This document shows positions 7,762 through 30,517 of a DNA stretch of 41,264 nucleotides, in pieces. Position 1 is the first letter of the stretch. Each line of letters begins with the position of its first letter. The notes below the pieces were generated by a model that worked only from the letters and a program-made list of their open reading frames with translations, searched no databases and was not told the DNA's origin. Where the stretch lies: assembly GCA_017468985.1 (NCBI GenBank), contig JAFUHF010000029.1:1-41264 (forward strand). The letters are read 5' to 3'. The stretch comes from Bacteroidaceae bacterium. Its GTDB lineage: Bacteria; Bacteroidota; Bacteroidia; Bacteroidales; Bacteroidaceae. Both the position numbers and the translations under genes were made by a program.

Positions 7762-8595
7762 ATGATCGTTTCACTCAGAGAACTCCTCACCGACGCCGAC
7801 CGCAGAGGCTATGCCATTGGCGCCTTCAACTGTTTGAGTCAGGAAAACGTGATGGGGGCCATTCGCGCTGCCGAAGACCTCCGTTCACCCCTCATATTGC
7901 AATTGGCCGAAGTGCAGTTTCCCGAAGCCCCCCTGGCCATGATGGCTCCCCTCTTTCTGGGAGCCGCAGAGCGTGCCAAGGTGCCCGTATGCGTCCATCT
8001 GGACCACGGCCTCAGCCTCGAGACGTGCATCAAGGCCATCCGCCTGGGCTTCACCTCCGTAATGCTCGACGCCTCGGCCCTGCCCTACGAAGAAAACCTG
8101 AAGGCCACCATGGAAATCAGCCGCATAGCCAAAGCCGCAGGCGTTGACGTGGAAGCCGAGCTGGGCCACGTAGGCGACTGCGGAGTAGACACCGCCGACG
8201 TGTTTACGGAAGTGGAGCAGGCCGTAGACTTCGTGAGCCAAACAGGCATTGACGCCCTGGCCGTGGCCATAGGCAACCTGCACGGCCACTACATCGCCAC
8301 CCCTCAGCTCAACATCAAGCGGCTCAACGAAATCCACGAAGCCGTAAGCCTGCCCTTGGTGCTCCACGGCGGCAGCGGAACAAGCGTGGAAGACTTCAAG
8401 GCCTGCCTCAAGGGCGGCATCTGCAAGATCAACGTAGCCACGGCCATTCAGCTGGAAGCCACCAAACAGATTCAGCACTACCTGGCCACGGCCGAAAAGC
8501 CGGCATACATCCCCATGAAGCGCGTCATAGAGAAAGCCTCCTATGAGGTGATCTGTCAGCACATGGAGCTCTTTGAAAGCAACAACAAAGCATAA
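7762..8595 (+). CDS. Class II ketose-bisphosphate (fructose/tagatose-type) aldolase
   Basis: This zinc-dependent aldolase reversibly cleaves a ketose phosphate into dihydroxyacetone phosphate and an aldehyde in the cytoplasm. The 277-residue product has the class II signatures: VHLDHG with catalytic Asp81 and zinc ligand His82, VEAELGHVGD (130-139), His174 in GNLHG, His202 in VLHGGSG (phosphate loop), and INVAT (223-227). It is the short GatY/KbaY/Fba type. It is the first gene of a tight operon followed by a PfkB kinase (22-base gap), a D-lyxose isomerase-type cupin and GH92. That context points to a dedicated sugar pathway rather than to central glycolysis; the true substrate (fructose 1-phosphate, fructose 1,6-bisphosphate, tagatose or xylulose phosphate) cannot be read from the sequence. 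Confidence 0.92.
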   Translation: MIVSLRELLTDADRRGYAIGAFNCLSQENVMGAIRAAEDLRSPLILQLAEVQFPEAPLAMMAPLFLGAAERAKVPVCVHLDHGLSLETCIKAIRLGFTSVMLDASALPYEENLKATMEISRIAKAAGVDVEAELGHVGDCGVDTADVFTEVEQAVDFVSQTGIDALAVAIGNLHGHYIATPQLNIKRLNEIHEAVSLPLVLHGGSGTSVEDFKACLKGGICKINVATAIQLEATKQIQHYLATAEKPAYIPMKRVIEKASYEVICQHMELFESNNKA

Positions 8596-8617
8596 CCCCA
8601 TCACCCCCTCCTCCAGC

Positions 8618-9652
8618 ATGAAACGCAAGAAAGACGACCTGCTCAAGCAGCCAAGGCGCGGCATAGTGTGCGCCGGCAACTGGCTTCTGGACTACGTGAA
8701 CTTCATCCCCACCTATCCCGAAGCCGGCAATCTCGTGACCATCGAAAAGCTGAGCACGGGCTTCGGCGGCTGTGCACACAACGTGGTGGCCGATCTGGCC
8801 GGACTGAAAACCGACCTGCCCCTCTACGCCTGCGGCTGCATAGGAAGCGACAGCCCGGGCAACGACATCATGAAACTCCTGCTGAAACTCAACATCGATG
8901 CTACTGGCATGGAGCGCACCAATCAGCCCACGTCGTATACGCAAGTGATGTCGGACTCCTCACACGCCACGCGCACCTTCTTCCACAACCGAGGGGCAAA
9001 CGCCCTGCTGAATGTGGACCATCTGATGAAGGTCAACGCTCCAGCCAAGATTTTCCACCTGGGCTACCTGCTGCTGCTTGACGCCCTCGATGCCGACGAC
9101 GGGCAGTATGGCACGCGGGCCGCACGCGCGCTCCACGACTTGCAGCAGAAGGGCTACCTCACGTCGGTCGACGTAGTGTCGGAAGAAAGCGACCGCTTCC
9201 GCAAAATCGTGCTCCCGTCGCTGCGCTACATTGACTACTTCATCATTAACGAAGTGGAGGCCGGCAAATGCTTCGGCTACTCGCTGCGCTCCGCCGACGG
9301 AAAAATCCTGCTGCCCAAGGTTGCCGAAGCCGCAGAATTCCTGATCTCCCACGGCGTGAGGCGCGTGTGCGCCATTCATTTTCCCGAAGGAGGCTACGCC
9401 CTGACCAAAGAAGGCGAAACGCGCTTTGTTCCTTCCATACGCATACCGGCATCAGGCATCGTTTCGAGCGTAGGAGCCGGCGACGCCTTCACGGCAGGAA
9501 TGCTCTATGCCCTCCACGAAAACTACTCCCTGACGCAGGCCCTGCGCATCGGCGCCGCATCGGCGTACTACAACCTGAAGTCGCCCACCTCCACCGGCGG
9601 AGCACCGCGACTCACCCAGATAGAAGAATTCATCAAGACTCACTACGAATAA
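8618..9652 (+). CDS. PfkB-family carbohydrate kinase
   Basis: A 344-residue ribokinase-fold sugar kinase. The N-terminal PfkB region (FGGCAHNVVADLAGL, then CGCIGSDSPG) and the C-terminal catalytic/anion-hole motif SSVGAGDAFTAGM are clear; the Asp in GAGD is the expected general base. An in-frame ATG at 8573 would overlap the aldolase gene; the ATG at 8618, 22 bases after the aldolase stop, is preferred because the family N-terminus (GIVCAGNWLLD) follows it directly. Its place between an aldolase and a mannose/lyxose isomerase suggests it phosphorylates a ketose such as fructose or xylulose (inference). Confidence 0.88.
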   Translation: MKRKKDDLLKQPRRGIVCAGNWLLDYVNFIPTYPEAGNLVTIEKLSTGFGGCAHNVVADLAGLKTDLPLYACGCIGSDSPGNDIMKLLLKLNIDATGMERTNQPTSYTQVMSDSSHATRTFFHNRGANALLNVDHLMKVNAPAKIFHLGYLLLLDALDADDGQYGTRAARALHDLQQKGYLTSVDVVSEESDRFRKIVLPSLRYIDYFIINEVEAGKCFGYSLRSADGKILLPKVAEAAEFLISHGVRRVCAIHFPEGGYALTKEGETRFVPSIRIPASGIVSSVGAGDAFTAGMLYALHENYSLTQALRIGAASAYYNLKSPTSTGGAPRLTQIEEFIKTHYE

Positions 9653-9677
9653 CCATCTTATCTTAAAACATACCATC

Positions 9678-10346
9678 ATGAAAAGAAGTGAAATCAATCA
9701 CTACATCAAGGAAGCTGCAGCATTTTTTGACGCCAATCATTTCTATCTTCCCCCATGGGCCAAGTGGACACCGGCCGAATGGCAAACGAAAGGAACGGAG
9801 TGCAGCGAAATACGCAACAATGCCCTGGGCTGGGACATCACCGACTTCGGAAAGGGAGACTTCCTAAAGGAAGGACTCACGCTCGTCACCATGCGCAACG
9901 GCAACCTGAAACTCGACAAGAAACCCTACTGCGAAAAGATCATGCTCGTACGCGACGGCCAGATCACGCCCACGCACTTCCACTGGACCAAGATGGAAGA
10001 CATCATCAACCGCGGCGGCGGAACCCTCTGCATCAAGCTCTGGAAAGCCAATGCCGAGGAACAGCCCACCAATGATGACGTCAGCATTCAGGTAGACGGC
10101 GTGACGCGCAAGTTCAAAGCCGGCGAAACGCTGCGCCTCCAGCCCGGCGAAAGCATAAGCTTCACGCCCTACATTTATCACACCTTCTGGTCGGAAAACG
10201 GATGGAGCCTCATCGGCGAAGTGTCCACCGTCAACGACGATGCCAACGACAACCGCTTCCTGGAAGAGCTGCCGCGCTATCCGGCCATCATGGAAGACGA
10301 AGCTCCGGCCTTCCTGCTCTGCAATGAATACAACAAGCTCTTCTGA
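9678..10346 (+). CDS. D-lyxose isomerase-type cupin (D-lyxose/D-mannose ketol-isomerase)
   Basis: This 222-residue cupin matches the D-lyxose isomerase family (EC 5.3.1.15), which interconverts D-lyxose and D-xylulose and in characterised members also D-mannose and D-fructose. Expected metal ligands are visible: His100 and His102 in PTHFHW, Glu107 in KMEDIINRGGG, and His168 in YIYHTFW; EVSTVNDD follows as in the family. It starts 25 bases after the kinase and ends 4 bases before the GH92 start. The neighbouring alpha-mannosidase makes mannose-to-fructose isomerisation an attractive role, which is inference. Confidence 0.88.
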   Translation: MKRSEINHYIKEAAAFFDANHFYLPPWAKWTPAEWQTKGTECSEIRNNALGWDITDFGKGDFLKEGLTLVTMRNGNLKLDKKPYCEKIMLVRDGQITPTHFHWTKMEDIINRGGGTLCIKLWKANAEEQPTNDDVSIQVDGVTRKFKAGETLRLQPGESISFTPYIYHTFWSENGWSLIGEVSTVNDDANDNRFLEELPRYPAIMEDEAPAFLLCNEYNKLF

Positions 10347-10350
10347 CCGA

Positions 10351-12567
10351 ATGAAAAAGACCCTAAGCCTGCTCTGCCTGAGCGTAGGACTGCTCCTCAT
10401 CTCGGCATGCTCCACAAGCCACGAGAAGGAACCCATCGACTACGTGAATCCCTACATTGGAAACATCAGCCACATGCTGGTGCCCACCACACCGATGCAA
10501 CACCTTCCGGCCAGCATGATGCGCGTAAACCCCATGCGCGAAGGCTACAACGACGAACGACTGGCCGGCCTGCCCGTGCTGCTCACCAACGACCGCGGCA
10601 GCTTTGCCTTCAGCTTCAATCCCTATCAGGGAGAGGCCCAAGGCTTGCGCCCCATACTCAGTTACTCCTACGACAACGAGAAAGCCACGCCCTATCGCTA
10701 CAGCGTACTCCTGGACTGGCCCGGAATACAAGTGGACTTCGCCCCCTCCCATCAAAGCGCACTCTATCGTTTCAGCTACGAAGGCAAGGGCAAGCCTTAC
10801 TTCATCGTGTCAACCCAGAACGGCCACATTGAAGCCCAAGGCGACGCCTTCTGGGGAGAAGAATTGATCGATGCTGCGTCAGGAACGAAAGTATATCTGT
10901 ATGGACAATTACAGCAGCAGGCCGAGGACATCATTCCCGTACAGCATACGGAAAAGGGACAGGCCTTAGCCCTGGCCTTTGCCGACGGACAGAAGCAGCA
11001 GCAAGTGCGCTACGGTGTTTCGTTCATCAGCGTGGAACAGGCCCAGAAGAACCTTCAGCGTGAAATCACGGACTGGAATCTGGACCGACTGGCCCTGGCA
11101 GGACGCGAAACGTGGAACAAGGCACTGAGCAGCATCAGCGTGGAAGGCGGTACGGACGACGACAAAGCCGTGTTCTACACCGCACTCTACCGCTGCCTCA
11201 CCCGACCCGTATGCATGAGCGAAGACGATCACTACTACAGCGGATTCGACGGGAAGGTTCATGACAACGATGGCCGCAACTTCTACACCGACGACTGGAT
11301 TTGGGACACCTATCGCACGGCCCACCCCCTGCGCGCCCTCATCGATGCACAGATGGAAAGCGACATCCTTCATTCCTGCATCCTCATGGCCGAGCAAATG
11401 GACAATCACTGGCTGCCCACGTTCACCGCTTCCACCGGTCCTCGCTGGTGGATGAACAGCAACCACGCCGTAGCCTCCATGATTGACGGCTATCGTAAAG
11501 GCATTCGCGGATTCAGCCTGGAAAAAGCCTTTGAGTATGGCAAGAAAGGCATTGAGGAGAAATCGCTCATCCCCTGGTATGGCGGACCGGCCGGCGAGCT
11601 TGAGGCATTCTACCAAGAGCATGGCTACATTCCTGCCCTACGCCCGGGCGAACCCGAAACGGTAAAGGGAGTGAACACCAGCTGGGAGAAACGGCAGCCT
11701 GTAGCCGTAACGCTCGGCACCGTATATGACGAATGGTGCTTGGCACAATTGGCTCAGGAACTGGGCGACACGGCACAGGCCAACCACTATCTGAAACGGT
11801 CGTACAACTACCGGACGCTCTTCCATCCAGAAACGCATTTCTTCCATCCAAAAGACAAGGACGGACAGTTCATTCCCGACGTAAACTACAAAACCATCGG
11901 CCGTGAATACTACTGCGAGAACAACGGCTACATTCACCGCTGGGACGTACAGCACAACTTCGCCGACCTTGTCAGCCTTCTTGGAGGCAACGAAGCCACC
12001 GACCGAGAGTTGGACCTGCTCTTCACGACTCCCATCGGCATGCCGCGATACAACTTCTATCACCTCATGCCCGACCATGGGGCTAACGTGGGCATGTTCT
12101 CCATGGCCAACGAGCCCTGCTGCCACATTCCTTACCTCTATAACTACATTCTCCGCCCCTGGAAAACACAGAAGCTCGTACGCAAACTGCTTCACGAATG
12201 GTTCCGCAACGACTTGATGGGAATGCCGGGCGACGAAGACGGCGGCGGAATGTCGGGATTCGTTGTGTTCAGCATGATTGGCTTCTATCCCACCACACCG
12301 GGACTCCCCATGTACACCATCGGCAGTCCCGTATTCTCCGACATCAAGATTCAGCTTTCTGACGGCCACACCCTACAGATAAAAGCCCACAACGCAAGCG
12401 AGGAAAACAAATACATCCAGTCGGCTCGTCTGAACGGCAAGCCTCTGACGAACGCATGGTTTATGCACGCCGACATTGCGCAAGGCGGCCTCCTCGAACT
12501 GGAAATGGGCCACCGGCCCAACAAGCAATGGGGCACCAGTGAGGCTCCGCCCTCTCTCGGAATGTAA
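10351..12567 (+). CDS. GH92 alpha-mannosidase-like lipoprotein
   Basis: A 738-residue exo-alpha-mannosidase-type enzyme predicted to be a lipoprotein: signal peptide with lipobox ISAC and Cys20. GH92 signatures run in order: VNPYIGN near the N-terminus (beta-sandwich domain), DDWIWDTYRTAHPL, the GPAGELEAFYQEHGYIP segment, ANEPCCHIPYLYNY with the expected catalytic Glu, and GDEDGGGMSGF with the expected catalytic-base Asp pair. The last two motifs are usually written NEPSHH and N(E/D)D-GQMS from memory, so this enzyme departs at SH to CC and Q to G, and linkage specificity is uncertain. The frame opens at 10240, but only the ATG at 10351 gives the signal peptide. Calcium dependence is known for the family. 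Confidence 0.9.
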   Translation: MKKTLSLLCLSVGLLLISACSTSHEKEPIDYVNPYIGNISHMLVPTTPMQHLPASMMRVNPMREGYNDERLAGLPVLLTNDRGSFAFSFNPYQGEAQGLRPILSYSYDNEKATPYRYSVLLDWPGIQVDFAPSHQSALYRFSYEGKGKPYFIVSTQNGHIEAQGDAFWGEELIDAASGTKVYLYGQLQQQAEDIIPVQHTEKGQALALAFADGQKQQQVRYGVSFISVEQAQKNLQREITDWNLDRLALAGRETWNKALSSISVEGGTDDDKAVFYTALYRCLTRPVCMSEDDHYYSGFDGKVHDNDGRNFYTDDWIWDTYRTAHPLRALIDAQMESDILHSCILMAEQMDNHWLPTFTASTGPRWWMNSNHAVASMIDGYRKGIRGFSLEKAFEYGKKGIEEKSLIPWYGGPAGELEAFYQEHGYIPALRPGEPETVKGVNTSWEKRQPVAVTLGTVYDEWCLAQLAQELGDTAQANHYLKRSYNYRTLFHPETHFFHPKDKDGQFIPDVNYKTIGREYYCENNGYIHRWDVQHNFADLVSLLGGNEATDRELDLLFTTPIGMPRYNFYHLMPDHGANVGMFSMANEPCCHIPYLYNYILRPWKTQKLVRKLLHEWFRNDLMGMPGDEDGGGMSGFVVFSMIGFYPTTPGLPMYTIGSPVFSDIKIQLSDGHTLQIKAHNASEENKYIQSARLNGKPLTNAWFMHADIAQGGLLELEMGHRPNKQWGTSEAPPSLGM

Positions 12568-12609
12568 AAAAACTTCTTCGCCTATTCCTATATTATAAAT
12601 TATTCTGCT

Positions 12610-12617
12610 TACCTTTG
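12610..12617 (+). promoter_or_regulatory. -7 element of the GH27 gene
   Basis: TACCTTTG is an exact TAnnTTTG match 38 bases before the ATG at 12656, in the gap after GH92. It suggests that the GH27 gene has its own start even if read-through occurs. Confidence 0.6.
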
Positions 12618-12655
12618 CAAACATAAAGAAATTCATTATTCATTCATAATACACA

Positions 12656-14236
12656 ATGAAAAGAACCAAATACCTGATGCTTTCGGCCGCGTGCGCCGTG
12701 GCACTTACGGTTGAAGCTTTCGATCCACCTACGATGGGTTGGAGTTCTTGGAACACGTTTGCGCTCAACATCAATGAGCAGGTCATTAAGAGCCAGGCCG
12801 ACGCAATGGTTGCCACCGGATTGGATAAAGCCGGCTACAAATTCATCAACATTGACGACGGATATTGGGATGGCCGTGGCGAGGACGGACATCTGCGTCT
12901 GAACACAAAGCTCTTTCCAAGCGGAATGCGCTCTCTCGTAGACTATATTCACAAGAAGGGCCTGAAAGCAGGCATTTACAGCGACGCCGGCGACAATACG
13001 TGCGGATCGGGCAACCGTGCAGCATGGGGACTGGGCGTAGGCTTTGCCGGACATGAAGATGAAGACTGCCATCTCTACTTCATTGACTGGGATTTTGACT
13101 TCATTAAGGTGGACTATTGCGGCGGTGCTCACATGGGTCTTGACGAACGCCAGCAATACACAAAGATCAGCAATGCCATCAAGAACTGTGGCAAGCCCGG
13201 CATCATCTTCAATGTTTGCCGCTGGGCCTATCCCGGCACATGGATTTCTGACGTAGCCGATTCGTGGCGCACCACGGGCGACATCAACTGCTCATGGGGC
13301 TCTTTGCGCAGCATCGTGAAAGAAAACCTCTATCTGCAGGCCTTTACGGGCGGTGGCCATTACAACGACCCCGACATGCTGGAAATTGGCCGTACGCTCA
13401 CTCACGACGAGGAAAATACCCACATGGGTTATTGGTGCATCACGAGTGCTCCCATGCTCATCGGGTGCGACATGACCACCATTCCCGAGTATTCGCTCAA
13501 CCTACTCAAGAACGCTGACCTCGTAGCCATGAATCAGGACAAACTGGGCATCGGTGCCCCTGTGGTGCAGCGCGAAGGCGAGGTTTACGTATTCGCCAAG
13601 GACATGAATAAGTTCCACGGCCCAAAGCGTGCCGTTGTGGTGACTAACCTGACGGATGAAACCCAAACCATCAATGTGGACATCCAAGCACTGGGATTCA
13701 CTGGAAAGGTAAAAGTATACGACTGCTTCACCCATCAGGTGGCCAATGCCGCCGCTCAGGGAAAATACAGCGTAACCGTTCCTGCCCATGGCTCTGCCGC
13801 TTACTTTGTGACAGGCAAACGCATTGAGCAGATCATTTATCAGGCCGAAGAAGCTTATCTCAACGCTTATCAGGAAATCAAGAATTGGCAAACAGCCAAG
13901 CACGAGCAGAACACTCAGGCCGATCAGGGCGTTTTCGTTGGTTCGTTAGGCAACAGCGCAGACAACTATCTGGAATGGCGCAATGTCTATAGCGAAAAGG
14001 GCGGACAATACACGTTATCCATTCGTTACGCCAGCGGCGATCCACGTACCATTCGACTTGACGTGAATGGCGGCCAGACACGCGAGCTCAACAACCTGAA
14101 CAGTGGTGATTTCTACAAGAAATGGACCACCGTCAATGTACAGGTAACACTCAAGAAGGGATATAACACCATTCGCCTTTCCAATCCGTCATCTTGGATG
14201 CCGAACGTAGACTGCATGTCTGTTCGCAAGGCTTAA
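12656..14236 (+). CDS. GH27 alpha-galactosidase-like secreted enzyme with C-terminal carbohydrate-binding domain
   Basis: A 526-residue exported retaining glycosidase. After a signal peptide (about 1-21) comes the clan GH-D TIM barrel: MGWSSWNTF (27-35), NIDDGYW, the nucleophile Asp153 in IKVDYCGG, and the acid/base Asp209 in SWRTTGDI; GGHYNDPDML follows. A beta-sandwich follows the barrel, and the last 135 or so residues (from IIYQAEEAYLNAY, with RYASGDPRTIRLDVNGG) resemble a CBM35/CBM6-type module. Activity is most likely alpha-galactosidase, but beta-L-arabinopyranosidase also occurs in GH27. It follows the mannosidase operon and could debranch a galactose-decorated mannan; this is inference. 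Confidence 0.92.
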   Translation: MKRTKYLMLSAACAVALTVEAFDPPTMGWSSWNTFALNINEQVIKSQADAMVATGLDKAGYKFINIDDGYWDGRGEDGHLRLNTKLFPSGMRSLVDYIHKKGLKAGIYSDAGDNTCGSGNRAAWGLGVGFAGHEDEDCHLYFIDWDFDFIKVDYCGGAHMGLDERQQYTKISNAIKNCGKPGIIFNVCRWAYPGTWISDVADSWRTTGDINCSWGSLRSIVKENLYLQAFTGGGHYNDPDMLEIGRTLTHDEENTHMGYWCITSAPMLIGCDMTTIPEYSLNLLKNADLVAMNQDKLGIGAPVVQREGEVYVFAKDMNKFHGPKRAVVVTNLTDETQTINVDIQALGFTGKVKVYDCFTHQVANAAAQGKYSVTVPAHGSAAYFVTGKRIEQIIYQAEEAYLNAYQEIKNWQTAKHEQNTQADQGVFVGSLGNSADNYLEWRNVYSEKGGQYTLSIRYASGDPRTIRLDVNGGQTRELNNLNSGDFYKKWTTVNVQVTLKKGYNTIRLSNPSSWMPNVDCMSVRKA

Positions 14237-14253
14237 TACCGTTTTCTCATCCC

Positions 14254-14292
14254 ATATGCTGGCAAAGGAAACAATATCCTTTGCCAGCATAT
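14254..14292. terminator. Bidirectional terminator between GH27 and the AlaX-like gene
   Basis: A perfect 16-base inverted repeat (14254-14269 and 14277-14292; arm ATATGCTGGCAAAGGA) with a 7-base loop, followed by a TTTTATTTT tract on the plus strand. It serves two convergent genes. Confidence 0.88.
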
Positions 14293-14293
14293 T

Positions 14294-14779
14294 TTATTTT
14301 CCGGCTTCACTATCGTCCAAGCGGAACACGATACGCTGAACGCCTTCCTGCCAACGGTAGCTGGAAATACGAAAAATCCCTATTTGCGACGTATGTTCCA
14401 CATGCTGCCCTATGCACAGGCATTCATCATAATCGCCTACGTGAACTATGCGCACCGTTTCTGCAACATCGTCGGGTAAACGATCTAGATCAAATCGTTC
14501 CGCCACTTCTTCCTTCTTGGCATATTCCATCCAGATGGGCAGATCGTCTTTTATTACCTGATTTACGCGCTCTTCCAATTCGCGAATCTGAGCCTCTGTC
14601 AGCGGAACATCCATGCGATAGTCAAGCTTCGACTTTTTCCGCTCCACATGACCCTGAAACGCACGACCACAACCGTACAATCGCGCCACAGTTCCGTTAA
14701 GAATATGTTCCGCCGTATGAGATGGACGGTGTTCTTCCTTATTATGCTCGTTGAGCATTGGCAATTCTTCTGGTTTCAT
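14294..14779 (-). CDS. AlaX-like alanyl-tRNA editing domain protein
   Basis: A 161-residue free-standing editing domain related to the second additional domain of ThrRS/AlaRS. The zinc motif pair is present: HTAEH (HxxxH, residues 21-25) and CIGQH followed by VEHTSQIGIF (CxxxH). Free-standing members hydrolyse mischarged Ser- or Gly-tRNA(Ala) in the cytoplasm (family knowledge). The protein is short, as in the AlaX-S type, and lacks the glycine-rich core of the larger types. It is a single gene with its own promoter at 14800. Confidence 0.82.
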   Translation of the reverse strand: MKPEELPMLNEHNKEEHRPSHTAEHILNGTVARLYGCGRAFQGHVERKKSKLDYRMDVPLTEAQIRELEERVNQVIKDDLPIWMEYAKKEEVAERFDLDRLPDDVAETVRIVHVGDYDECLCIGQHVEHTSQIGIFRISSYRWQEGVQRIVFRLDDSEAGK

Positions 14780-14799
14780 AAATGAACGTGATAGGATTG

Positions 14800-14807
14800 C
14801 AAAGTTA
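14800..14807 (-). promoter_or_regulatory. -7 element of the AlaX-like gene
   Basis: TAACTTTG on the minus strand, an exact consensus match, 20 bases upstream of the start codon. Confidence 0.65.
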
Positions 14808-14883
14808 ATGCTTTCGTGTTACACTTTTCCCTCTTTTCTTCCATATCTTCTTCACAACAAAATGACAATAAAACGAAAGGAAC

Positions 14884-14914
14884 TTGCTAATAAAACCGAA
14901 AAAGGGTAACTTTG
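14884..14914 (+). promoter_or_regulatory. Promoter of the GH71/99-like and MATE genes
   Basis: TTG at 14884-14886 and TAACTTTG at 14907-14914 are separated by 20 bases, a good Bacteroidetes promoter; the ATG is at 14949. Confidence 0.72.
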
Positions 14915-14948
14915 CCTATCCAAAAACAATATTAACGGACTACAAACC

Positions 14949-16952
14949 ATGAATCATCTTCTGCAACGCATTGCAGCAGGCATGATATGCTGCTGCGCAC
15001 TGCTCCCCTCAATGGGACAAGACCTGATGTCCGACACTTGGGTGGGAACGGATGCCTTAGGACGCACGATGCCCACCAGCGAAGAGGTGGGACTGCCTAA
15101 AACGGACAAGCAAAGAGTAGTAGGCATGTTCTACATCACTTGGCATGATGAAGGAAAATACAATGTACCTAAGAATTATAAGGATGTTTCTCAGGTATTA
15201 GACCAAGACCCAGGGGCGCGAATCAACGGTGATTCGGAAGCATGGCCTCGCAATGTGGGGGCTTGGCATTGGGGAGAGCCCGAAAACGGCTATTTCCTCA
15301 GTCGCGACAGGTATGTCATCCGTCACGACATCTCAATGCTCACCGACGCCGGTGTGGATGTACTGATTTTCGACGTAACCAATGCCGTATGCTACTGGGA
15401 GGAATGGGAAACGGTGTGTTCCGTGATTGAAGAAATGAAACTTGAAGGTAATCCTACCCCAAAGATATGTTTCTGGACGTTTAATGGCCCTTCGATCGTG
15501 GTAAGTCTCAATCTGTATGAGCGCATTTACTTGCAGAATAAATATAAGGATCTGTGGTTCTATTGGGAAGGCAAACCGCTTTTGCTCTGTAACAGCCGCC
15601 CCGAAGTGGATTCCACCCCCAATCGTCCCGTTAACCGTAATCCCCACTACGAAGCCGAGGCCGTAACCGATCCCAACCATCCGCATTACAACAATGAACG
15701 TTATACCACGGAAATCTTTACTGACTATCCACAGGAAATGAAGGATTTCTTCACCATGCGCGGCATGTGGTGGGGCTATTATGAATGGTTTGGAAAGCGT
15801 TACGTCGGTACCGAAGACTCTTGGAGCTTTGGATATCAAATGGACGACCCTAACGTAGCCCGTCTCACTCCTGAAGAGCGCGCTTCCAAGCATCAGGGCA
15901 AGCTGGAAGAAATGGCCGTAACACCTGCACAGCACCCTATTTCCATTACAGGAAAGAGCTGGCGCACCGATACCAAGGAACCTTCTTTAGATGAGCATGA
16001 CTCACCGGCCGAGGCCTACGTTCCCTGGTTGGGAAAGACGGTGAAGAATCCAGAAGGCTACGGCATTTATTTTCAAGACCGCTGGGATGAAGCCCTGAAA
16101 GCTGATCCGCCTTTCATTTATCTCAACGACTGGAATGAATGGACGGCTGGTAAATATGTCACCGGTCATGCACCAGGCGATCCAGCCCCTGGACCAACGG
16201 AGTTTTTGGGACGAAAGGAAAACACGTTCTACTTCGTTGACCAGTACAATGCTGAGTTCAATCGCACCATCGCTCCCGTCAAAGGACGCTATACCGACAA
16301 TTACTACATGCAGATGGCACAGAACATCCGTCGCTACAAGGGTGCTCGCCCCATTCCCCAGAACAAGGGCCTGCGTTCCATCAGCATTGACGGACGCTTT
16401 GACGACTGGGCCGCTTCTGCCGCCTTCTTCGACACCCGTGGCGACATTACCCATCGCGATCACAATGGTTATGCCGGACGACATTACGTGAACACTTCAG
16501 GTCGCAACGACATTGTGGAGAGTCGCGTGGCTGTTGATCGAAAAAACGTCTACTTCTACGTAAAGGCAGCCTCCGATCTTACGTCCTTCCACGATCCTAA
16601 CTGGATGCTCCTTCTCATCGATGCCGACAACGATAGTCAAACGGGATGGTATGGCTACGACTTCATCATCAACAAGGAAGTGAGCGATGACCACCATACG
16701 GTCCTCATGCAGTTTGATGCTTCTTCTGCATCCTGGAAGCCGGTTACTCAAATTTCTTATGCACAGCAGGGAAACCGTATGGAGCTTGCCGTTCCTCGCA
16801 AGCTGTTACGCCTCACACAGAAGCAGTTCACGTTCGACTTCAAGTGGGCCGACAATCCCCAAACCCTGACTGACCCCATTTCTCTCTGTACCGACGGCGA
16901 CACTGCCCCCAACCGACGATTCAACTATCGGTTTATCTGGAACCAACAGTAG
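14949..16952 (+). CDS. Secreted GH71/GH99-like glycoside hydrolase candidate with CBM9/DOMON-like C-terminal domain
   Basis: A 667-residue exported protein (signal peptide about 1-23). Residues 55-440 resemble the TIM barrel of the GH71/GH99-like group: VGMFYITWHDEGKY, GAWHWGEPENGYFLSRDRYVIRHDISMLTDAGVDVLIFDVTN (read as separate stretches), then FYWEGKPLLLC, RGMWWGYYEW and FIYLNDWNEW. The C-terminal 180 residues (from LRSISIDGRFDDWAA, with LLIDADNDSQTGW) look like a CBM9/DOMON-type beta-sandwich. Its catalytic residues cannot be named with confidence, so substrate is open; mannan or a related polysaccharide would fit the neighbours. It ends 6 bases before the MATE gene. Confidence 0.72.
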   Translation: MNHLLQRIAAGMICCCALLPSMGQDLMSDTWVGTDALGRTMPTSEEVGLPKTDKQRVVGMFYITWHDEGKYNVPKNYKDVSQVLDQDPGARINGDSEAWPRNVGAWHWGEPENGYFLSRDRYVIRHDISMLTDAGVDVLIFDVTNAVCYWEEWETVCSVIEEMKLEGNPTPKICFWTFNGPSIVVSLNLYERIYLQNKYKDLWFYWEGKPLLLCNSRPEVDSTPNRPVNRNPHYEAEAVTDPNHPHYNNERYTTEIFTDYPQEMKDFFTMRGMWWGYYEWFGKRYVGTEDSWSFGYQMDDPNVARLTPEERASKHQGKLEEMAVTPAQHPISITGKSWRTDTKEPSLDEHDSPAEAYVPWLGKTVKNPEGYGIYFQDRWDEALKADPPFIYLNDWNEWTAGKYVTGHAPGDPAPGPTEFLGRKENTFYFVDQYNAEFNRTIAPVKGRYTDNYYMQMAQNIRRYKGARPIPQNKGLRSISIDGRFDDWAASAAFFDTRGDITHRDHNGYAGRHYVNTSGRNDIVESRVAVDRKNVYFYVKAASDLTSFHDPNWMLLLIDADNDSQTGWYGYDFIINKEVSDDHHTVLMQFDASSASWKPVTQISYAQQGNRMELAVPRKLLRLTQKQFTFDFKWADNPQTLTDPISLCTDGDTAPNRRFNYRFIWNQQ

Positions 16953-16958
16953 CAGCCG

Positions 16959-18317
16959 ATGTCTGTCGACACCCAGCAACAGAAGTTTCAGCACATGACC
17001 ACGATGCCCGTTGACAGACTGGTCAGACAACTTGCGCTCCCTACGGTAATCTCCATGCTCATCACGGCCATATATAACATGGCCGATACTTTCTTTGTGG
17101 GTCAGTTGGGGGCCAGTGCACAGGGAGCCATTGGCGTGGTCTATTCCCTCATGATGATTATTCAGGCCATTGGTTTTGGCTTTGGCCATGGCTCGGGCAA
17201 CTACATTTCGCGCAAACTGGGTGAGCAAAATGTCCTTGAAGCTGCCCAAATGGCTGTAGTGGGCTTTGTTTCTTCTTTTTTTACGGGACTGCTCGTACTG
17301 TTAGCCGGTTTGCTCTTCATGCCTCAGATAGCTCTGATCTTAGGCTCCACGCTCACCATCCTGCCTTACGCTGAAGAATACATGTTCTTCATACTCCTTG
17401 CCGCTCCTTTCTACGCATCATCGCTTACGCTCAACAACCAACTGCGCCTGCAAGGCTGTGCCCAGCGCGCTCTTTTGGGTATTGGCACCGGTGCTCTGCT
17501 GAATTGCGCTCTTGATCCGCTCTTGATCTTTGGTTTCCACATGGGAGTAACGGGTGCCGGCCTCTCTACGCTCATCAGCCAGATATTCAGTTTCCTTATC
17601 CTGCTCTATCAAACTCAGCATAGCGACGCAGTAAGTCTCAGTCTGCGCCTTTATCGCCCTTACAAGGGTCTCTTAATGGCCATCATGCAAGGTGGCTTGC
17701 CATCCGTAAGCCGACAGGGCATTCATTCCTTGGCTAACATCCTGCTCAGCCATGCCATGAAGTTCTATGGTGATCAGTTCTTTGCAGCCATGACCATCGT
17801 TGTGCGGCTTTCCAACCTTCTTTTCGCCAGTGTGGCTGGCATCGGTCAGGGATTCCAACCCGTTTGCGGTTTCAACTATGGCGCTCGTCTCTACTCTCGT
17901 GTGCACAGTGCCTATATCTACACGCAGCGGTTAGCCCTCACCACCTTGAGCATTGCCACACTGGTACTGCTCATCTTCACGCCTCAGATCATAGCCTTCT
18001 TTTCCCAATCACCTCAAGTTATCGCTCTCAGTGTGCAAGCTCAACGCTGGCAGTGCATTTCCATCCCCTTCATGGGCTTCTGCATCATTGTGAGTATGCT
18101 GCTTCAAAACATTAATCACTATAAGCAAGCCACCGTCATGGCCCTGAGCCGCAGCGGCATCTTTTTCATTCCTGCCATTCTGCTTATGCCTTCTTGCTTA
18201 GGTATGCTGGGCGTCATGCTGGCGCAACCTGTGGCCGACTTCTGCTCCTTTGCCTTAGCCCTTCCCATGCAGCGCAGGGTAATGCGCCAACTAAAGCAGC
18301 CTGACGCCATTTCATGA
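16959..18317 (+). CDS. MATE-family efflux transporter
   Basis: A 452-residue inner-membrane antiporter with about 12 hydrophobic helices in two similar halves, of the NorM/DinF superfamily, which exports organic cations or drugs using sodium or proton gradients. Family features: LALPTVISMLITAIYNMADT at the start of helix 1, GQLGASAQGAIG, and in the second half GGLPSVSRQG and GIGQGFQPVCGFNYGA, a classic MATE signature. The 6-base spacing from the upstream hydrolase gene makes co-transcription very likely, though the functional link is unclear. Confidence 0.92.
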   Translation: MSVDTQQQKFQHMTTMPVDRLVRQLALPTVISMLITAIYNMADTFFVGQLGASAQGAIGVVYSLMMIIQAIGFGFGHGSGNYISRKLGEQNVLEAAQMAVVGFVSSFFTGLLVLLAGLLFMPQIALILGSTLTILPYAEEYMFFILLAAPFYASSLTLNNQLRLQGCAQRALLGIGTGALLNCALDPLLIFGFHMGVTGAGLSTLISQIFSFLILLYQTQHSDAVSLSLRLYRPYKGLLMAIMQGGLPSVSRQGIHSLANILLSHAMKFYGDQFFAAMTIVVRLSNLLFASVAGIGQGFQPVCGFNYGARLYSRVHSAYIYTQRLALTTLSIATLVLLIFTPQIIAFFSQSPQVIALSVQAQRWQCISIPFMGFCIIVSMLLQNINHYKQATVMALSRSGIFFIPAILLMPSCLGMLGVMLAQPVADFCSFALALPMQRRVMRQLKQPDAIS

Positions 18318-18322
18318 AGAAA

Positions 18323-18351
18323 GCCTGCTCAGAATCTTCTCCTGAACAGGC
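18323..18351. terminator. Possible terminator between MATE and LRR-protein genes
   Basis: Ten-base arms GCCTGCTCAG (18323-18332) and CTGAACAGGC (18342-18351) with one mismatch. There is no clear T tract, so the role is tentative, but it lies between two convergent genes. Confidence 0.4.
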
Positions 18352-18379
18352 CCTCTTGATTTATGAATTTGAAATTTGC

Positions 18380-19522
18380 TTACTTCTTATAAGCCTTTTT
18401 ACCGTTCTGAATATAAATGCCCTTTTCCGGACGATTCGTTTTACGGCCCTGCAAGTCGTAGGTGGCTTTTGTATCAGCCTGATTCTTTACGGCTTTGATA
18501 CCTGTTGTTTCGCCACTCAGAATGGCCTTGGCCTGAGCACTCAGTGCAATGGTCTTAGGCAAGAAAGCCTCATGGCCTGCAAGCATTTCGCCGCTCTGCA
18601 CCGGACGGAAAGCAGCCCATTCCGTACCACCTTCTGTCTGAGTTTCACTCAATACGTAGAATTCGCCGTTTGTCTTTGCTGTCACGTCTTCTAATGTGCC
18701 TTGCAGCAGATTGCCCGTCACGTCATCGGTTTTTTCACCATTGGCAATCTCTGTGGTGCGAAGTACTACGTTAGCTCCGGGCTGTGCCTTAATCAACACG
18801 GCTGTTCCTGCTGGAATGTAAACTCCTTGCAGGGGTTCAAAGTTTACCTGACCACCCTGTTCTTTCAATATATAAACAGTAGCTTCCTGCTTTTCTTCTA
18901 TCTTTACAGTCTTGTTCAGGAAATAAGTAGCCCATCCTTTGGCGTTCATCGTTATGTTCAGTGCCAGTCCATTCACGTAGGGTGCCCACAGCGTGTAGTC
19001 ACTACCTTCAGGAGTATTGATTTGACGTCCTTGAGCGATGTCCTTCAGCAGGTTGCGTTTTTGTGCATCCTTATTCCAGAAAGCAGGCGACTGTGCGGCC
19101 TCTGCATTGATTACTTTCAGATTACGACAAGCAAAGAACGGCCCTGACTGATACACGGTTTTCTCCTCAAGTGTGGAGGTATACATGTAGTTCAGGTTAG
19201 CCGGAATGGTGAGTTCTTCCAAATTATAGCAACGCTGAAAGGCATATCCATGAATAGAAGTGACTTTATAACTGCGTCCTTCGTGTTTCACCACATTTGG
19301 GATACTGATATTCTTCAACTTCATATCTGCACCCGAAACAGCCACTTCACCTTTATCCGTAATGGTATAAACCAGTGGAGCTTCATAGAATGTGTTCTCG
19401 GCATTGTAGTAGCGCGGATGGTAAATGGCATACTTGAACTTACTGAAGTTCGTATCTTCATAAGCCGCACGGCTTACTGCCACGCTGCACATTAGTGTAA
19501 TGAAGAGTAATGCTTTTTTCAT
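18380..19522 (-). CDS. Secreted protein with BspA-type LRR segment and C-terminal sorting-like domain
   Basis: A 380-residue exported protein (signal peptide 1-19). The segment around residues 75-110 (YKVTSIHGYAFQRCYNLEELTIP) matches a BspA/TpLRR leucine-rich repeat, continued by FFACRNLKVINAEA. The middle (about 190-320) is a beta-rich region with threonine and glycine. The C-terminus (ATYDLQGRKTNRPEKGIYI then a lysine-rich tail NGKKAYKK) is the short sorting-like tail common on Prevotella surface proteins, similar in layout to type IX secretion signals. Role unknown: surface display or adhesion is plausible. Single gene with its own promoter. Confidence 0.75.
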   Translation of the reverse strand: MKKALLFITLMCSVAVSRAAYEDTNFSKFKYAIYHPRYYNAENTFYEAPLVYTITDKGEVAVSGADMKLKNISIPNVVKHEGRSYKVTSIHGYAFQRCYNLEELTIPANLNYMYTSTLEEKTVYQSGPFFACRNLKVINAEAAQSPAFWNKDAQKRNLLKDIAQGRQINTPEGSDYTLWAPYVNGLALNITMNAKGWATYFLNKTVKIEEKQEATVYILKEQGGQVNFEPLQGVYIPAGTAVLIKAQPGANVVLRTTEIANGEKTDDVTGNLLQGTLEDVTAKTNGEFYVLSETQTEGGTEWAAFRPVQSGEMLAGHEAFLPKTIALSAQAKAILSGETTGIKAVKNQADTKATYDLQGRKTNRPEKGIYIQNGKKAYKK

Positions 19523-19557
19523 TGTGCTTATTGTTTAATAGTTTCTGATATTCAAGG

Positions 19558-19565
19558 CAAAGTTA
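19558..19565 (-). promoter_or_regulatory. -7 element of the LRR-protein gene
   Basis: TAACTTTG on the minus strand, exact consensus, 35 bases upstream of the start codon at 19522. The gene-free bases from here to 19873 show nothing else I can support beyond a six-base hairpin near 19746. Confidence 0.65.
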
Positions 19566-19873
19566 AGAAGAATATCTTAATCCGTATTACTCAACGCTTA
19601 AAAAATCCATCATTAGGATTTCGTGATTCGCCTTTTGCTTATTCAGACATAACACTTTTCATAAAATATTACACATAATTACCTTGATACGCAAAAAGGA
19701 TATCTGTTGGGAAATGATCAGAAAAAACGCCCTTTATTTCAAAAGTTCCCCAATGGGGAAAACGTGATGCAAGGGTCGTAACATCGATTCCCAAATGAAA
19801 ATAACATATTACTATCATCGGTTCATGCTCTTTACTGACAGAAACTCAATCTTACAATTATTGCTAAAAGTAC

Positions 19874-19903
19874 TTGCACTCACAAGTAGTTTTATTACCT
19901 TTG
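19874..19903 (+). promoter_or_regulatory. Promoter of the SpoU methyltransferase gene
   Basis: TTG at 19874-19876, 19 bases, then TACCTTTG at 19896-19903: a near-ideal Bacteroidetes promoter 42 bases before the ATG. Confidence 0.72.
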
Positions 19904-19945
19904 CGACATCATAGAAACAACATTCATTTTAAATGAATACACATC

Positions 19946-20488
19946 ATGAGAAAACTAAAGGTAACGGAACTTGGCCGATTAAACATAGACGAATATAAGC
20001 AAACAGAGAAAGTTCCACTGATCATCGTACTGGATAACATCAGGAGTGTTTACAACGTAGGATCCGTATTTCGCACTGCCGATGCGTTTAAAATTGAAAA
20101 AATTATGCTTTGCGGTATTACGGCGGTACCCCCCATGCTGGAAATTCACAAGACTGCGCTTGGCGCAGAAGATTCCGTAGAATGGACTTACTATGAAGAT
20201 ACACTCAAAGCCATACAGGAACTAAAAGAACTGAGCTATCAACTCATGGCCATTGAACAGGTTGAAAACAGTCTGCCGCTTCATCAATGGACATTAGAAA
20301 ATGAGAAAAAATATGCCTTCATCTTGGGTAATGAAGTGAAAGGGGTGAGACAGGACGTTGTCGATGCCTGCCATCATAGTATTGAAATTCCGCAATTCGG
20401 TACGAAGCACTCCCTTAACATTGCCAATGCAGCAGCCATAGTGATGTGGGAATTCATGAAACAACATCTGTCGATAAGCTGTCCATAA
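19946..20488 (+). CDS. TrmH/SpoU-family RNA 2'-O-methyltransferase
   Basis: A 180-residue SPOUT-fold enzyme that would transfer a methyl group from S-adenosylmethionine to a ribose 2'-OH in tRNA or rRNA. The three SpoU motifs are all present: NIRSVYNVGSVFRTADAF (31-48), LGNEVKGV (about 131-138) and IPQFGTKHSLNIANAAAIV (about 148-166). The protein is a catalytic domain without the L30-like RNA-binding extension of RlmB, like many small TrmH-group proteins; target RNA unknown. Its stop codon runs directly into the DnaA-box-rich region, and one DnaA-like sequence overlaps its final codons. Confidence 0.9.
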   Translation: MRKLKVTELGRLNIDEYKQTEKVPLIIVLDNIRSVYNVGSVFRTADAFKIEKIMLCGITAVPPMLEIHKTALGAEDSVEWTYYEDTLKAIQELKELSYQLMAIEQVENSLPLHQWTLENEKKYAFILGNEVKGVRQDVVDACHHSIEIPQFGTKHSLNIANAAAIVMWEFMKQHLSISCP

Positions 20489-20921
20489 ACATTGCGAAAT
20501 TCGTTGATAACTGACCGAAAAAGCTGTGGATAATTACCTCCAAAAAATTCAATTTATGAATACACAGAAAGACGCAGTTTATCATTACATTCACCTTAGC
20601 ATTTCTACAGATACAGTCACTTTATCCACAATTTGTCACAAATAAATTCTTCCACCGACCACTTATTCACAACATGTCAATAACTTTTGATGAACTGCCT
20701 ACATTCTTCAAATCTTCAAACCGTTACTTTTTCCTGTTTATTGTTCACTACATGTGGATAGCAGAACACCTCATGTTGATAAATTCATAGCAAAATAAAT
20801 CAACCACAAAGTTTTCATCGTTTCCACAGTATATCATTATCAGTATTTACATCATACACCAATATTACCCTATTAATATAATCTTAAAACAGTATAGATT
20901 ATAATGTGATTGTGGACAACC
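20469..20921. other. Candidate chromosomal replication origin (oriC-like DnaA-box cluster)
   Basis: A 433-base gene-free, strongly AT-rich stretch. Perfect DnaA boxes: TGTGGATAA at 20525-20533 (minus orientation) and TTATCCACA at 20622-20630 (plus). TTATTCACA at 20663-20671 fits TTATNCACA. One-mismatch boxes: TGTCGATAA 20469-20477, TGTCCATAA 20480-20488, TGTGGATAG 20753-20761, TGTTGATAA 20774-20782 and TGTGGACAA 20911-20919. An especially AT-rich run at about 20831-20910 could be the unwinding element. No dnaA, dnaN or gyrB is in the window. The clustering is seen directly; function as origin is inference. Confidence 0.65.
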
Positions 20922-21635
20922 TTACGATTTGCTGTTTTTCAACCACTCTTTTCTTTCTTCTTCAGGGTAATGCTCTATGGCATAGCGAAGGGCTGTACGG
21001 GGAAGTTCTCGTGCATAGGATTCGAGAAAAGCGGTAAGCACAGGTTCATCACGTTTTCCTACTTCGCGAAGCATCCATCCCGTAGCTTTGTGCATCAGGC
21101 TTTCTTTGTCGTTCAGCAGCATTTTGGAAAGTGCTAAGGTATCCTGAAACTGATCATGACGAATGAAGGTCAAGGTAGAAACCATAGCGATGCGGCGCTT
21201 CCAGAGCATATCGCTTTCTGCTAATTCGTACAACAGGCTTCTGTCATTAGACGTAAGAAGGTAGGCTCCCACAATGTGCGGCGCCGAAAGATCTACGAGA
21301 TCCCAATTATTGATGTACCTGGCATGGTCAACGTAAAACTTAACGATCAGCTCCTGCTCATTCTTGAGTTTCTTGAATCGAGTAATGAGCATCAAGAGTG
21401 CACACAGCCTTACCTCATGCCACTCGTTGAGCAGCAATTGGTGAATGGTGTTCAAATCTACCAATACAAACGTTTTTGCTATGGCTCTGGTAGTGGGAAC
21501 GGGAATACCAAGGAATTGGTCACCTTCTCCATATTCTCCAGGCCCCGTTTTGAAAAATCCCATCAGGATTTTTTGCTTTTCGGGCGTACCTTGATGGGAT
21601 TTTAGGGTGTTAATGATTTGTTGGGTCAGTGTCAT
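20922..21635 (-). CDS. AlkD-like DNA alkylation repair protein
   Basis: A 237-residue all-helical HEAT-like repeat protein of the DNA alkylation repair family, whose characterised members are DNA glycosylases removing bulky or charged alkylated bases. Family stretches are evident: NNWDLVDLSAPHIVG, SDMLWKRRIAMVSTLTFIR, HKATGWMLREVGKRDEP and the terminal ELPRTALRYAIEHYPEEER. Its start codon overlaps the stop of the upstream esterase gene in TAATG, so translation is probably coupled. Its 3' end abuts the origin-like region. Confidence 0.9.
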   Translation of the reverse strand: MTLTQQIINTLKSHQGTPEKQKILMGFFKTGPGEYGEGDQFLGIPVPTTRAIAKTFVLVDLNTIHQLLLNEWHEVRLCALLMLITRFKKLKNEQELIVKFYVDHARYINNWDLVDLSAPHIVGAYLLTSNDRSLLYELAESDMLWKRRIAMVSTLTFIRHDQFQDTLALSKMLLNDKESLMHKATGWMLREVGKRDEPVLTAFLESYARELPRTALRYAIEHYPEEERKEWLKNSKS

Positions 21636-27421: not shown

Positions 27422-30400
27422 TCACTCTTTGATGGTGAAGGCGTCGTAGTCTCCTGTGTTGAAACGGCCGACGTCTATGCGCCATTGAAATGGAATCATG
27501 AACTGGCCCGACTCTTCGTCATAACCCGTGAACATCTCGGTATTCCAAACTACAAAGATGGTGTATTCTGTACCTTGATAGTTGTAAGTATAGGTGGTGT
27601 TGATTCGGCCATTGTTGTAGGTTCCGGACTTGTTGGTAATGTAGAATTCCGACTCGTCGTTCTTCTTTCCGTTCCAGTGGAAGTAGAGCTCTGTGCCTTC
27701 TCCGGAAAAGTTCTTGATGCAATAGTTGTCAAGTGCTTCGCAGTAGAGCAGTTCCTTTTCAGTGGTTTTTTCTTCCCACCAGGAGGTGTAGTTCACCGTT
27801 CCTTTCGGTTCATAGGTGACGTTATAGATGTTGATGGGGAACTGGTCCTGGCCTTCCGTTTGATATTCTTCGGGCAGACGGATGGAGGTCTTCAGATTTT
27901 CACCTTCTTCAATGGGATCGATGGTGATGTCTATCCAGGCCTGATTGCTTCCCTTGTAGAAGGTAACCGTTTCGGGGATGTGTACCTTGCTGCTCTCAGT
28001 GGTGAGCATCAGAGGCAAGGTCTTCTCCGTTTCCTGTCCCTTGCGCTGAAGGAGGATGGAGAAGGTGCCACCTTTATAGGGAGCTACTTGGTTCAGTTCT
28101 GCATCAAACGTATAGAGATCCTTTTCGTAATAAGTAAACGTGGCCTCTTCTTTGGGGTTGGTATACTTTTCGGGCACGGCAGGATTGTCGCTGTAGTCTA
28201 CGTCGAGCGCGATGCTGTAGTTGTAGGTCTTGCCGCTCTCGGGCTTGTTGATGCTGATTTCTACGTAGGCTGAGTTGCTGTTTTCCGGAATGGTGACGGT
28301 CTTCGGTGCTGAAAGCACATTAGGATCGTCGGTCCAGAACTGGATGGGAATGTTTTCTTCCACTCCGCTGTAATTGCGCGTAATGGTAAACTTCTGGATG
28401 GTACGGCCTTCATAGAGTTCGTCTTCCACCAATACTTCTCCGCTGCTGAATTTGTTAATCATGTAGATTTTGGCGATGGCCGGATTGCGCATGAGTTCGT
28501 ATTCTCCGCAGTCGTAGATCAGGCGGTCGTCGTCGTGGTTTACGTCGAACTTCCATTGTTCAGGATAGTTGCCTATGTCAGTACGGACGATGTCCTTCTG
28601 AAGGCGAAGAATGTCGAAGTAGGAAAGTCCTTCGCCGAAGAATTCTATGCGTCGCTGCTTCCAGACTTCGCTGATGAAGTCACCCTCCGGCGTGGGGTAT
28701 TGCGGATCGCGATACGTCTTGATGAAACTGGCAAGCTCTTCCCTTGCGGCGGCTTCACGTCCTGTGCGATAGAGGGCTTCGGCCTTGATGAGATACATTT
28801 CTTCTATACGCATCAGTGGAATGTCGTTGGCCATGATGTTATCGCCCACAATGTTATTGTAGGGAGCAAACTTCACTTCGGTATATGCCGAAAGGTTGTT
28901 GCTTTCTTGCATAAACTGACGGGCACCTGGATAGAGCTCTTCCAGAGTGGGATGATTGCCGTCTTCGTCAAGGAACCACTTTTTACGTTCGTCCGTGCTG
29001 GAGATTTGGTTGTAAAGGTTTTCGTTTACGGTGCATGCTACTACGGTGCAATATCCATTGCTTAAGGTTGAGGTATGGCTGGCGAAGGTGTTGATGTAGC
29101 CTTGCTTTTGGGCATCCTCTTCAGTGATGTCAATGCCCCAGAGCCAGTTCTCTGCGTTGATGTCATTGAAGCCGGGCTTGCCCACCTCTGCGAGCGACAG
29201 TGGTGTGGCGTCACCTGTGCCGATGGCCTTTTCTGCCGCTGCCAAGGCATCGCCATAGTCGCCTTTGGTGAGGTAGACGCGGGCCTTCAGACCTTCTATG
29301 GCTCCAATGCTGAGGTCAGATTTGGTTTGAGGACTCATGTTTTCCGTTTCGAGAACCTGCTCGGCGGCATTCAGCTCATTAATGATAAACTCATATACTT
29401 TGTCTACGGTGGAGAGGGGGATGCCCGTCGTTCCCAGCAGATGGCTGTTTTCTTCGGTAATGATGGGGGCTAATGGTTCGTTCTTGGCTATGGCGTAGGG
29501 CCATTGGTAGAGTTGAGCCAGAATGAAGTAGTAGTAGGCACGGCGTGCACGGGCCTGTGCGCGGTTATACTTCCACTGTAGCTGTGTAACGGTGGCTGGT
29601 ATGGAGATAAGCACGTTGTTAGTGGCCGTGATGCCGGAGAAGATCAGTGCATAATGGTTTTCCCCCATGTTCCGGCTTTTATCGGTCAGGGCGTGATAGT
29701 TGGAATACCAATTATAGCCGGTATTTTCAGAAATGAAGTCCATGCCCTTACGGTCAAGTCCGACGAAAATGCTGGGCAATCCGAAGCCGTCGGCACGTCC
29801 GCTGTTCCAGCTGGTGGCGGTATTGTGTTGTTCGTCAATGATCTGCTGAATGGGGTCTTCATCGGGGTATGCAGAAATCTCCAGCACCATGGTGTCGGCC
29901 TGGTTAGGAAACACATAGCCTTTGTCCGTGCGCAGGAATGCCAATCCAAACTGTTCTTCCATGTTGAAATCGGCTACGTTCAGTCGCACAAAGGCTACGG
30001 AGTCGCCGGCAGCAAATGTGGCATTGTCCTGAACGCTGATGGGGTTGACTGTGTTTCCTAAAATCACCATATGCGTCTCGTCAGAGACGGTCACCGTGGC
30101 CGTGGCAGCCTTGGTGAGGTCGCCCGTGCGTTTGAGCTGCATGTCAATGGTCTTCAGGTTACGCGTAGCATCGTCAATGTTAATGAAGCCAATGGTAGAA
30201 AGTCCGAGACCTGCGAAGTTGGCCGTAAACTTACTACAATAGGCATGCAGGGCAATGTCTCCTTCGGTAATGAAGCCATTTTGCAGGAAGGTAAAGTGGC
30301 TGGGCTTCACTTCCTTTCGGTCCACGAAGATCTCCTCTATGTCGGAGGTCAGGAGTGTCTTGCCGTTGAGGGTCAGTTTTACTTCTTCCGTCTTGATGAC

Positions 30401-30517
30401 GTCGGCCGGTGCCTTGAACGAATGAACCTGTCCTTTGGTTCTTACGTTGACGGTCTGACTGCTTGCTGCCACGCCAAGGAGCAGCAACAGGGCGAGAGAA
30501 AGGAGCGCACGTTTCAT
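27422..30517 (-). CDS. Large RagB/SusD-like protein with extra N- and C-terminal domains
   Basis: A 1031-residue exported protein. Residues about 225-690 are a SusD fold: NNVLISI, the TPR helix ARARRAYYYFILAQLY, GLKARVYLTKGDYGDALAAA, MRIEEMYLIKAEALYRTG and the closing EVWKQRRIEFFGEGLSYFD. Typical SusD proteins have 500-650 residues. Here about 200 residues precede it, with SQTVNVRTKGQVHSF and VKLTLNGKTLL, resembling the small upstream gene product, and about 330 beta-rich residues follow (FWTDDPNVLSAPKTVTIPE onward, with a second similar segment at TTESSKVHIPETVTFYKG). The signal peptide ends AASSQ without a lipobox Cys, unusual for SusD. Its start codon overlaps the upstream stop (ATGA). No SusC gene is adjacent. 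Confidence 0.85.
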   Translation of the reverse strand: MKRALLSLALLLLLGVAASSQTVNVRTKGQVHSFKAPADVIKTEEVKLTLNGKTLLTSDIEEIFVDRKEVKPSHFTFLQNGFITEGDIALHAYCSKFTANFAGLGLSTIGFINIDDATRNLKTIDMQLKRTGDLTKAATATVTVSDETHMVILGNTVNPISVQDNATFAAGDSVAFVRLNVADFNMEEQFGLAFLRTDKGYVFPNQADTMVLEISAYPDEDPIQQIIDEQHNTATSWNSGRADGFGLPSIFVGLDRKGMDFISENTGYNWYSNYHALTDKSRNMGENHYALIFSGITATNNVLISIPATVTQLQWKYNRAQARARRAYYYFILAQLYQWPYAIAKNEPLAPIITEENSHLLGTTGIPLSTVDKVYEFIINELNAAEQVLETENMSPQTKSDLSIGAIEGLKARVYLTKGDYGDALAAAEKAIGTGDATPLSLAEVGKPGFNDINAENWLWGIDITEEDAQKQGYINTFASHTSTLSNGYCTVVACTVNENLYNQISSTDERKKWFLDEDGNHPTLEELYPGARQFMQESNNLSAYTEVKFAPYNNIVGDNIMANDIPLMRIEEMYLIKAEALYRTGREAAAREELASFIKTYRDPQYPTPEGDFISEVWKQRRIEFFGEGLSYFDILRLQKDIVRTDIGNYPEQWKFDVNHDDDRLIYDCGEYELMRNPAIAKIYMINKFSSGEVLVEDELYEGRTIQKFTITRNYSGVEENIPIQFWTDDPNVLSAPKTVTIPENSNSAYVEISINKPESGKTYNYSIALDVDYSDNPAVPEKYTNPKEEATFTYYEKDLYTFDAELNQVAPYKGGTFSILLQRKGQETEKTLPLMLTTESSKVHIPETVTFYKGSNQAWIDITIDPIEEGENLKTSIRLPEEYQTEGQDQFPINIYNVTYEPKGTVNYTSWWEEKTTEKELLYCEALDNYCIKNFSGEGTELYFHWNGKKNDESEFYITNKSGTYNNGRINTTYTYNYQGTEYTIFVVWNTEMFTGYDEESGQFMIPFQWRIDVGRFNTGDYDAFTIKE

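Follow-up and report, generated by a model that had tools for sequence, protein, structure and literature searches.

A predicted chromosomal replication origin away from dnaA, beside a spoU gene, in a Bacteroidota bacterium

Introduction

Origins of replication far from dnaA are called common in Bacteroidetes in the passage of PMC4755523 that cites DoriC, and the same source, where it treats the first chromosome of Prevotella intermedia OMA14, gives a predicted oriC at 1,498,452-1,498,927, a multi-box segment of 476 bp at a skew transition. Maps of P. gingivalis in PMC5771137 place oriC at dnaA, which we take as a drawing convention, and a cyanobacterium with an oriC far from dnaA is described in a part of PMC6323995. 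The orientation and spacing of DnaA boxes matter for origin activity, as stated in PMC4285127.

Here, we analysed a DnaA-box cluster beside a SpoU/TrmH-type RNA methylase gene (spoU) in a Bacteroidaceae bacterium. The original prediction, a chromosomal origin away from dnaA, appears to be right but of a kind already known, because Bacteroidetes origins commonly lie far from dnaA according to that passage of PMC4755523. The only modest novelty is that spoU and the predicted oriC are linked in this family; among the papers listed by our search of the open-access literature, none names spoU/trmH as an oriC neighbour.

Results

A DnaA-box cluster between spoU and an AlkD-like gene

The window, that is, the whole stretch of 41,264 nt that was analysed, is the entire contig C23 of an assembly of 2,171,813 bases in 87 contigs that is 78.65% complete. 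In its middle, spoU and an AlkD-like gene (alkD) converge on a gap of 433 bp (20489-20921) with 68% A+T, so that the gap is upstream of neither gene. The features of the locus are as follows.

19946..20488, + strand: spoU, SpoU/TrmH-type RNA methylase gene (PF00588, 1.7e-34)
20469..20921, no strand: predicted oriC, a DnaA-box cluster with an AT-rich side (shuffles, assembly uniqueness, GC-skew minimum at 20963)
20469..20488, - strand: two one-mismatch boxes, TTATCGACA and TTATGGACA, 11 bp apart and co-oriented, within the spoU 3' end
20525..20533, - strand: exact DnaA box TTATCCACA (motif scan)
20622..20630, + strand: exact DnaA box TTATCCACA (motif scan)
20663..20671, + strand: exact DnaA box TTATTCACA (motif scan)
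20675..20683, - strand: one-mismatch box TTATTGACA (motif scan)
20753..20782, - strand: two one-mismatch boxes, CTATCCACA and TTATCAACA, 21 bp apart and co-oriented
20821..20910, no strand: AT-rich run, candidate unwinding element (75-78% A+T in 60-bp windows)
20911..20919, - strand: one-mismatch box TTGTCCACA (motif scan)
20922..21635, - strand: alkD, AlkD-like DNA alkylation repair gene (PF08713, 2.4e-59)

The two perfect boxes in opposite orientation 97 bases apart, TTATCCACA at 20525-20533 (-) and 20622-20630 (+), and the third exact box, TTATTCACA at 20663-20671 (+), were found as originally claimed. One-mismatch boxes had been put at five; we count six relative to TTATNCACA, each of them on the - strand (at 20469, 20480, 20675, 20753, 20774 and 20911). 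The description of the stretch as gene-free holds for 20489-20921 only, the boxes at 20469 and 20480 lying inside the last 20 bases of spoU, and its AT-rich run is real but moderate rather than very AT-rich, with 75-78% A+T at 20821-20910 versus 68% in the gap and 82% in the richest 50-mer (20861-20910). That no dnaA or dnaN is nearby was borne out, as neither family occurs among the 30 window ORFs scanned.

Altogether, 20469-20921 holds 3 exact TTATNCACA boxes and 9 at ≤1 mismatch, compared with means of 0.07 and 1.33 in dinucleotide shuffles of the same segment, and the observed counts were reached in 0 of 2000 shuffles. Taken over all of the window, the motif shows no enrichment, since the 6 matches to TTWTNCACA were reached by 12 of 100 shuffles and the 35 matches to TTATNCACA with ≤1 mismatch by 27 of 100; clustering, not box number, is the unusual feature of the window. 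The same holds for the 2.17-Mb assembly, in which 39 exact boxes against 38 matches of a reversed control motif indicate no enrichment. Among the listed positions in all 87 contigs of this 78.65% complete assembly, the only exact boxes with a neighbour within 500 bp are the three in the gap. By the shuffle counts, 20469-20921 contains a DnaA-box cluster, in largely non-coding DNA, beyond chance.

Scanning 20441-20960 for other origin motifs gave no DnaA-trio-like run (a run of four [TA]A[GA], as a simple pattern on both strands) and no GATC. The DnaA-trio motif is optional in bacterial oriC and does not define it.

Gene content of the window

Eight + strand ORFs with Pfam matches occupy window positions 7762-20488 and would meet a predicted leftward fork head-on. 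They are a class II aldolase, a PfkB kinase, a D-lyxose isomerase, a GH92, an alpha-galactosidase-like and a MatE ORF, an ORF with a weak GH99 match below the cut-off, and spoU, and a single - strand ORF (18380-19522) is interspersed among them; this segment is likely a sugar-use cluster. At 55-3965, an Fe-S protein gene (55-732, +) is separated from a FAD_binding_2/Succ_DH_flav_C gene (2286-3965, +) by an S13 carboxypeptidase gene (999-2273, -). An ORF of 1031 residues, which is long for a SusD protein, lies at 27422-30517, and its SusD-type matches are confined to the middle (265-639).

Strand asymmetry around the cluster

The cumulative GC-skew minimum of the contig lies at 20963, just past the gap, and the cumulative skew drops again beyond approximately 32 kb. 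Third-codon-position skew on the + strand, computed from ORFs that were called mechanically, is -0.161 to the left of the cluster and +0.023 to its right; of 12 further genomes, 11 show a rise over the cluster as well, and the remaining one (G010; relatives carry our genome numbers) is nearly unchanged.

We then compared the position of the skew minimum with that of spoU over 15 stretches, of which the window is one. The two are ≤3 kb apart in 7 of the 15, where 1.9 would be expected (combined p of about 0.001), although one of the seven minima, in G006, falls at a contig end. The minimum lies farther than 3 kb from spoU in G007, G018, G010, G014, G021, G019, G023 and G109 (in G109 by 38 bases). 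Further stretches of 80 kb had the minimum within 3 kb of spoU in 0 of 5, G172 being nearest at 4.1 kb, which brings the stretches beyond 3 kb to 13 of 20 over both sets. In the one-contig genome G109, the minimum of the 80 kb read, at 1704183, is separated by 2.4 kb from the cluster at 1706611 and by about 0.9 Mb from dnaA, and the skew changes sign at spoU, from -0.061 over the 20 kb before to +0.036 over the 20 kb after. These results support the origin reading, though the support is noisy and mixed in relatives, since only 7 of 15 and 0 of 5 stretches have their minimum ≤3 kb from spoU.

Box clusters beside spoU in relatives

Among contig stretches of 14 genomes, own window included, the best 500-bp box window lies ≤1.6 kb from spoU in 11. 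Further genomes gave the same in 4 of 5, one of the four (G158) only by equalling the score of another window at a distance of 2.5 kb. For G109, 20 stretches were sampled, and the best box window among them is beside spoU. In total, 16 of 20 genomes of the genus or family have the best window of the stretch next to spoU. With boxes counted on both sides of spoU, 24 of 56 spoU loci exceeded all 60 of their own shuffles and 32 of 56 did not; this set includes 26 further family loci that are the best SpoU matches and no random draw. Of the dnaA loci, 1 of 40 exceeded all of its shuffles, and none of the 26 alkD loci did.

The side of spoU on which the cluster lies varies. The window, G013, G011 and G006 have it downstream and G007, G004, G005 and G109 upstream of the gene, and a rule that the cluster is always downstream was therefore rejected. 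The top-scoring cluster among those examined, in G007 (L010, 2123-2561), lies upstream of spoU, opposite to its side in the window, and comprises 3 exact boxes together with 10 that have one mismatch.

Exceptions were found in several genomes. The best box window of G021 is not beside spoU; that of G018 is about 6 kb from it, at 11855 and near the skew minimum (11301); and G023 and G172, both of one genus (g6), have strong clusters 28 and 15 kb from spoU, respectively, the places in G018, G023 and G172 having been picked post hoc by box density. The strong cluster in G023 (L164, 5618-6115), with three TTATCCACA and several TTATCAACA boxes between nadA and a sulfatase gene, is a probable oriC, 28 kb from spoU.

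The other neighbour of the gap behaves differently from spoU. Among the 24 relatives that have an AlkD match, AlkD adjoins spoU in none, and the shortest distance is about 4.9 kb, in G012; spoU is the conserved neighbour of the gap and alkD is a non-conserved one. Linkage of spoU and cluster in farther Bacteroidota was rejected, being absent in 7 of 7 named records with SpoU relatives (three Flavobacterium, a Roseivirga, a Cytophagaceae, a Bacteroidales and a Bacteroidetes record). In these, up to 20 kb around spoU contained no cluster (best score 4) and ≤2 exact boxes, which in no case lay within 500 bp of each other.

Spacing and orientation of the boxes

We next considered the arrangement of boxes in 20 clusters, including that of the window, which were selected post hoc by box density. 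Within 30 bp, these contain 37 same-orientation pairs versus 5 opposed pairs, and 29 of the 37 are spaced by 11-12 or 21-23 bp, equal to one or two helix turns. Outside the clusters (1.92 Mb), there are 26 same-orientation pairs, 5 of them at 11-12 or 21-23 bp, and 34 opposed pairs. Because the genomes are related, box pairs are not independent events. The window itself has two phased co-oriented pairs, 20469/20480 and 20753/20774, an arrangement that fits cooperative assembly of DnaA and may reflect it.

Position of dnaA

No match to dnaA was found anywhere in the 78.65% complete assembly, the simplest explanation being that it lacks about a fifth of the genome. Among 40 relatives, 37 have a dnaA match, that of G036 being weak. 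In seven of seven relatives of one or few contigs (six are single contigs and G042 consists of three), with the contig taken as circular, the cluster lies 0.43-1.34 Mb from dnaA: about 1.34 Mb in G042, 0.43 in G043, 1.04 in G059, 0.83 in G158, 0.84 in G172, 0.90 in G109 and 0.62 in G023.

Discussion

We conclude that 20469-20921 is very probably the chromosomal oriC of this bacterium, as judged from the sequence. An origin away from dnaA is supported by the clustering of the boxes, the skew minimum of the contig, the conservation beside spoU in the family, the phasing of the boxes and the lack of clusters at dnaA loci. Against it stand the mixed skew of the relatives, the renewed drop in skew beyond approximately 32 kb of the window, the eight ORFs that a leftward fork would meet head-on, the clusters 15 and 28 kb from spoU in g6, the 32 of 56 spoU loci that do not exceed their shuffles, the 7 farther records with no cluster at spoU, and a simple-pattern scan that gave no DnaA-trio-like run. 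In the mechanism that we infer, with DnaA binding, unwinding and bidirectional initiation at the gap, DnaA encoded elsewhere would bind the exact boxes first and then occupy the weaker, helically phased boxes to form an oligomer, which would melt the AT-rich run at about 20821-20910 for helicase loading, and two forks would then depart, one to the left and one to the right.

A cluster of DnaA boxes alone cannot separate an origin from a titration or reactivation site, such as datA and DARS of E. coli, respectively. A gap of that type would alter the level of free DnaA-ATP and the true oriC would lie at another place, perhaps in that fifth of the genome which the assembly lacks, where, at 78.65% completeness, another cluster could have been lost from view. 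This is unlikely given that the gap coincides with the skew minimum of the contig, that the 2.17 Mb contain no second group of exact boxes, and that the best box windows of the family are near the same gene, spoU, when a single dnaA locus of 40 beats its shuffles.

The position of the boxes, around and partly within the end of spoU, could also suggest a promoter or terminator region of spoU or alkD that is regulated by DnaA and has no role as an origin. We regard this as very improbable: the convergent genes leave the gap upstream of neither, and the cluster, being upstream of spoU in some relatives and downstream in others, takes a position on either side of the gene that a gene-regulatory role does not predict. 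The 68% A+T of the gap would favour chance accumulation of boxes in an AT-rich spacer, an explanation that is hardly credible when none of 2000 shuffled versions of the stretch reached the count and when clusters and phasing recur in relatives.

Taking the locus as a probable origin, we lean towards the view that oriC lies beside spoU/trmH family-wide, on either side of it and with dnaA hundreds of kb away. In that case, spoU would be the indicator gene for oriC in the family, usable on fragmented assemblies, and its linkage to oriC may reflect selection for an RNA methylase at maximal gene dosage. The present analysis locates a predicted oriC even though the genome is fragmented, and it suggests spoU rather than dnaA as a pointer to the origin for much of the family; if dnaA were used instead, the predicted oriC would be off by 0.43-1.34 Mb in the seven measured genomes. 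A correct pointer would allow correct coverage-based estimates of growth rate and rotation of genome maps in these bacteria.

Compared with oriC of E. coli, the predicted origin has other neighbour genes and lacks GATC in 20441-20960, which means no Dam/SeqA control via GATC. It resembles E. coli oriC, as commonly described and as treated in part of PMC4285127, in having boxes of differing strength, helical-turn spacing and an adjacent AT-rich run, here a candidate unwinding element. As in the Bacteroidetes origins of DoriC and Ori-Finder, described in passages of PMC4755523 and PMC10225481, an intergenic box cluster lies near the minimum of GC disparity, here that of the contig, and not always near dnaA. 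The P. intermedia OMA14 chromosome, compared by its description in that portion of PMC4755523 only, differs from the window in being closed and in having clear opposite skew transitions; in the same description, its oriC shares with the predicted origin a length of about 0.45 kb, several DnaA boxes, a GC-skew transition and a position away from dnaA.
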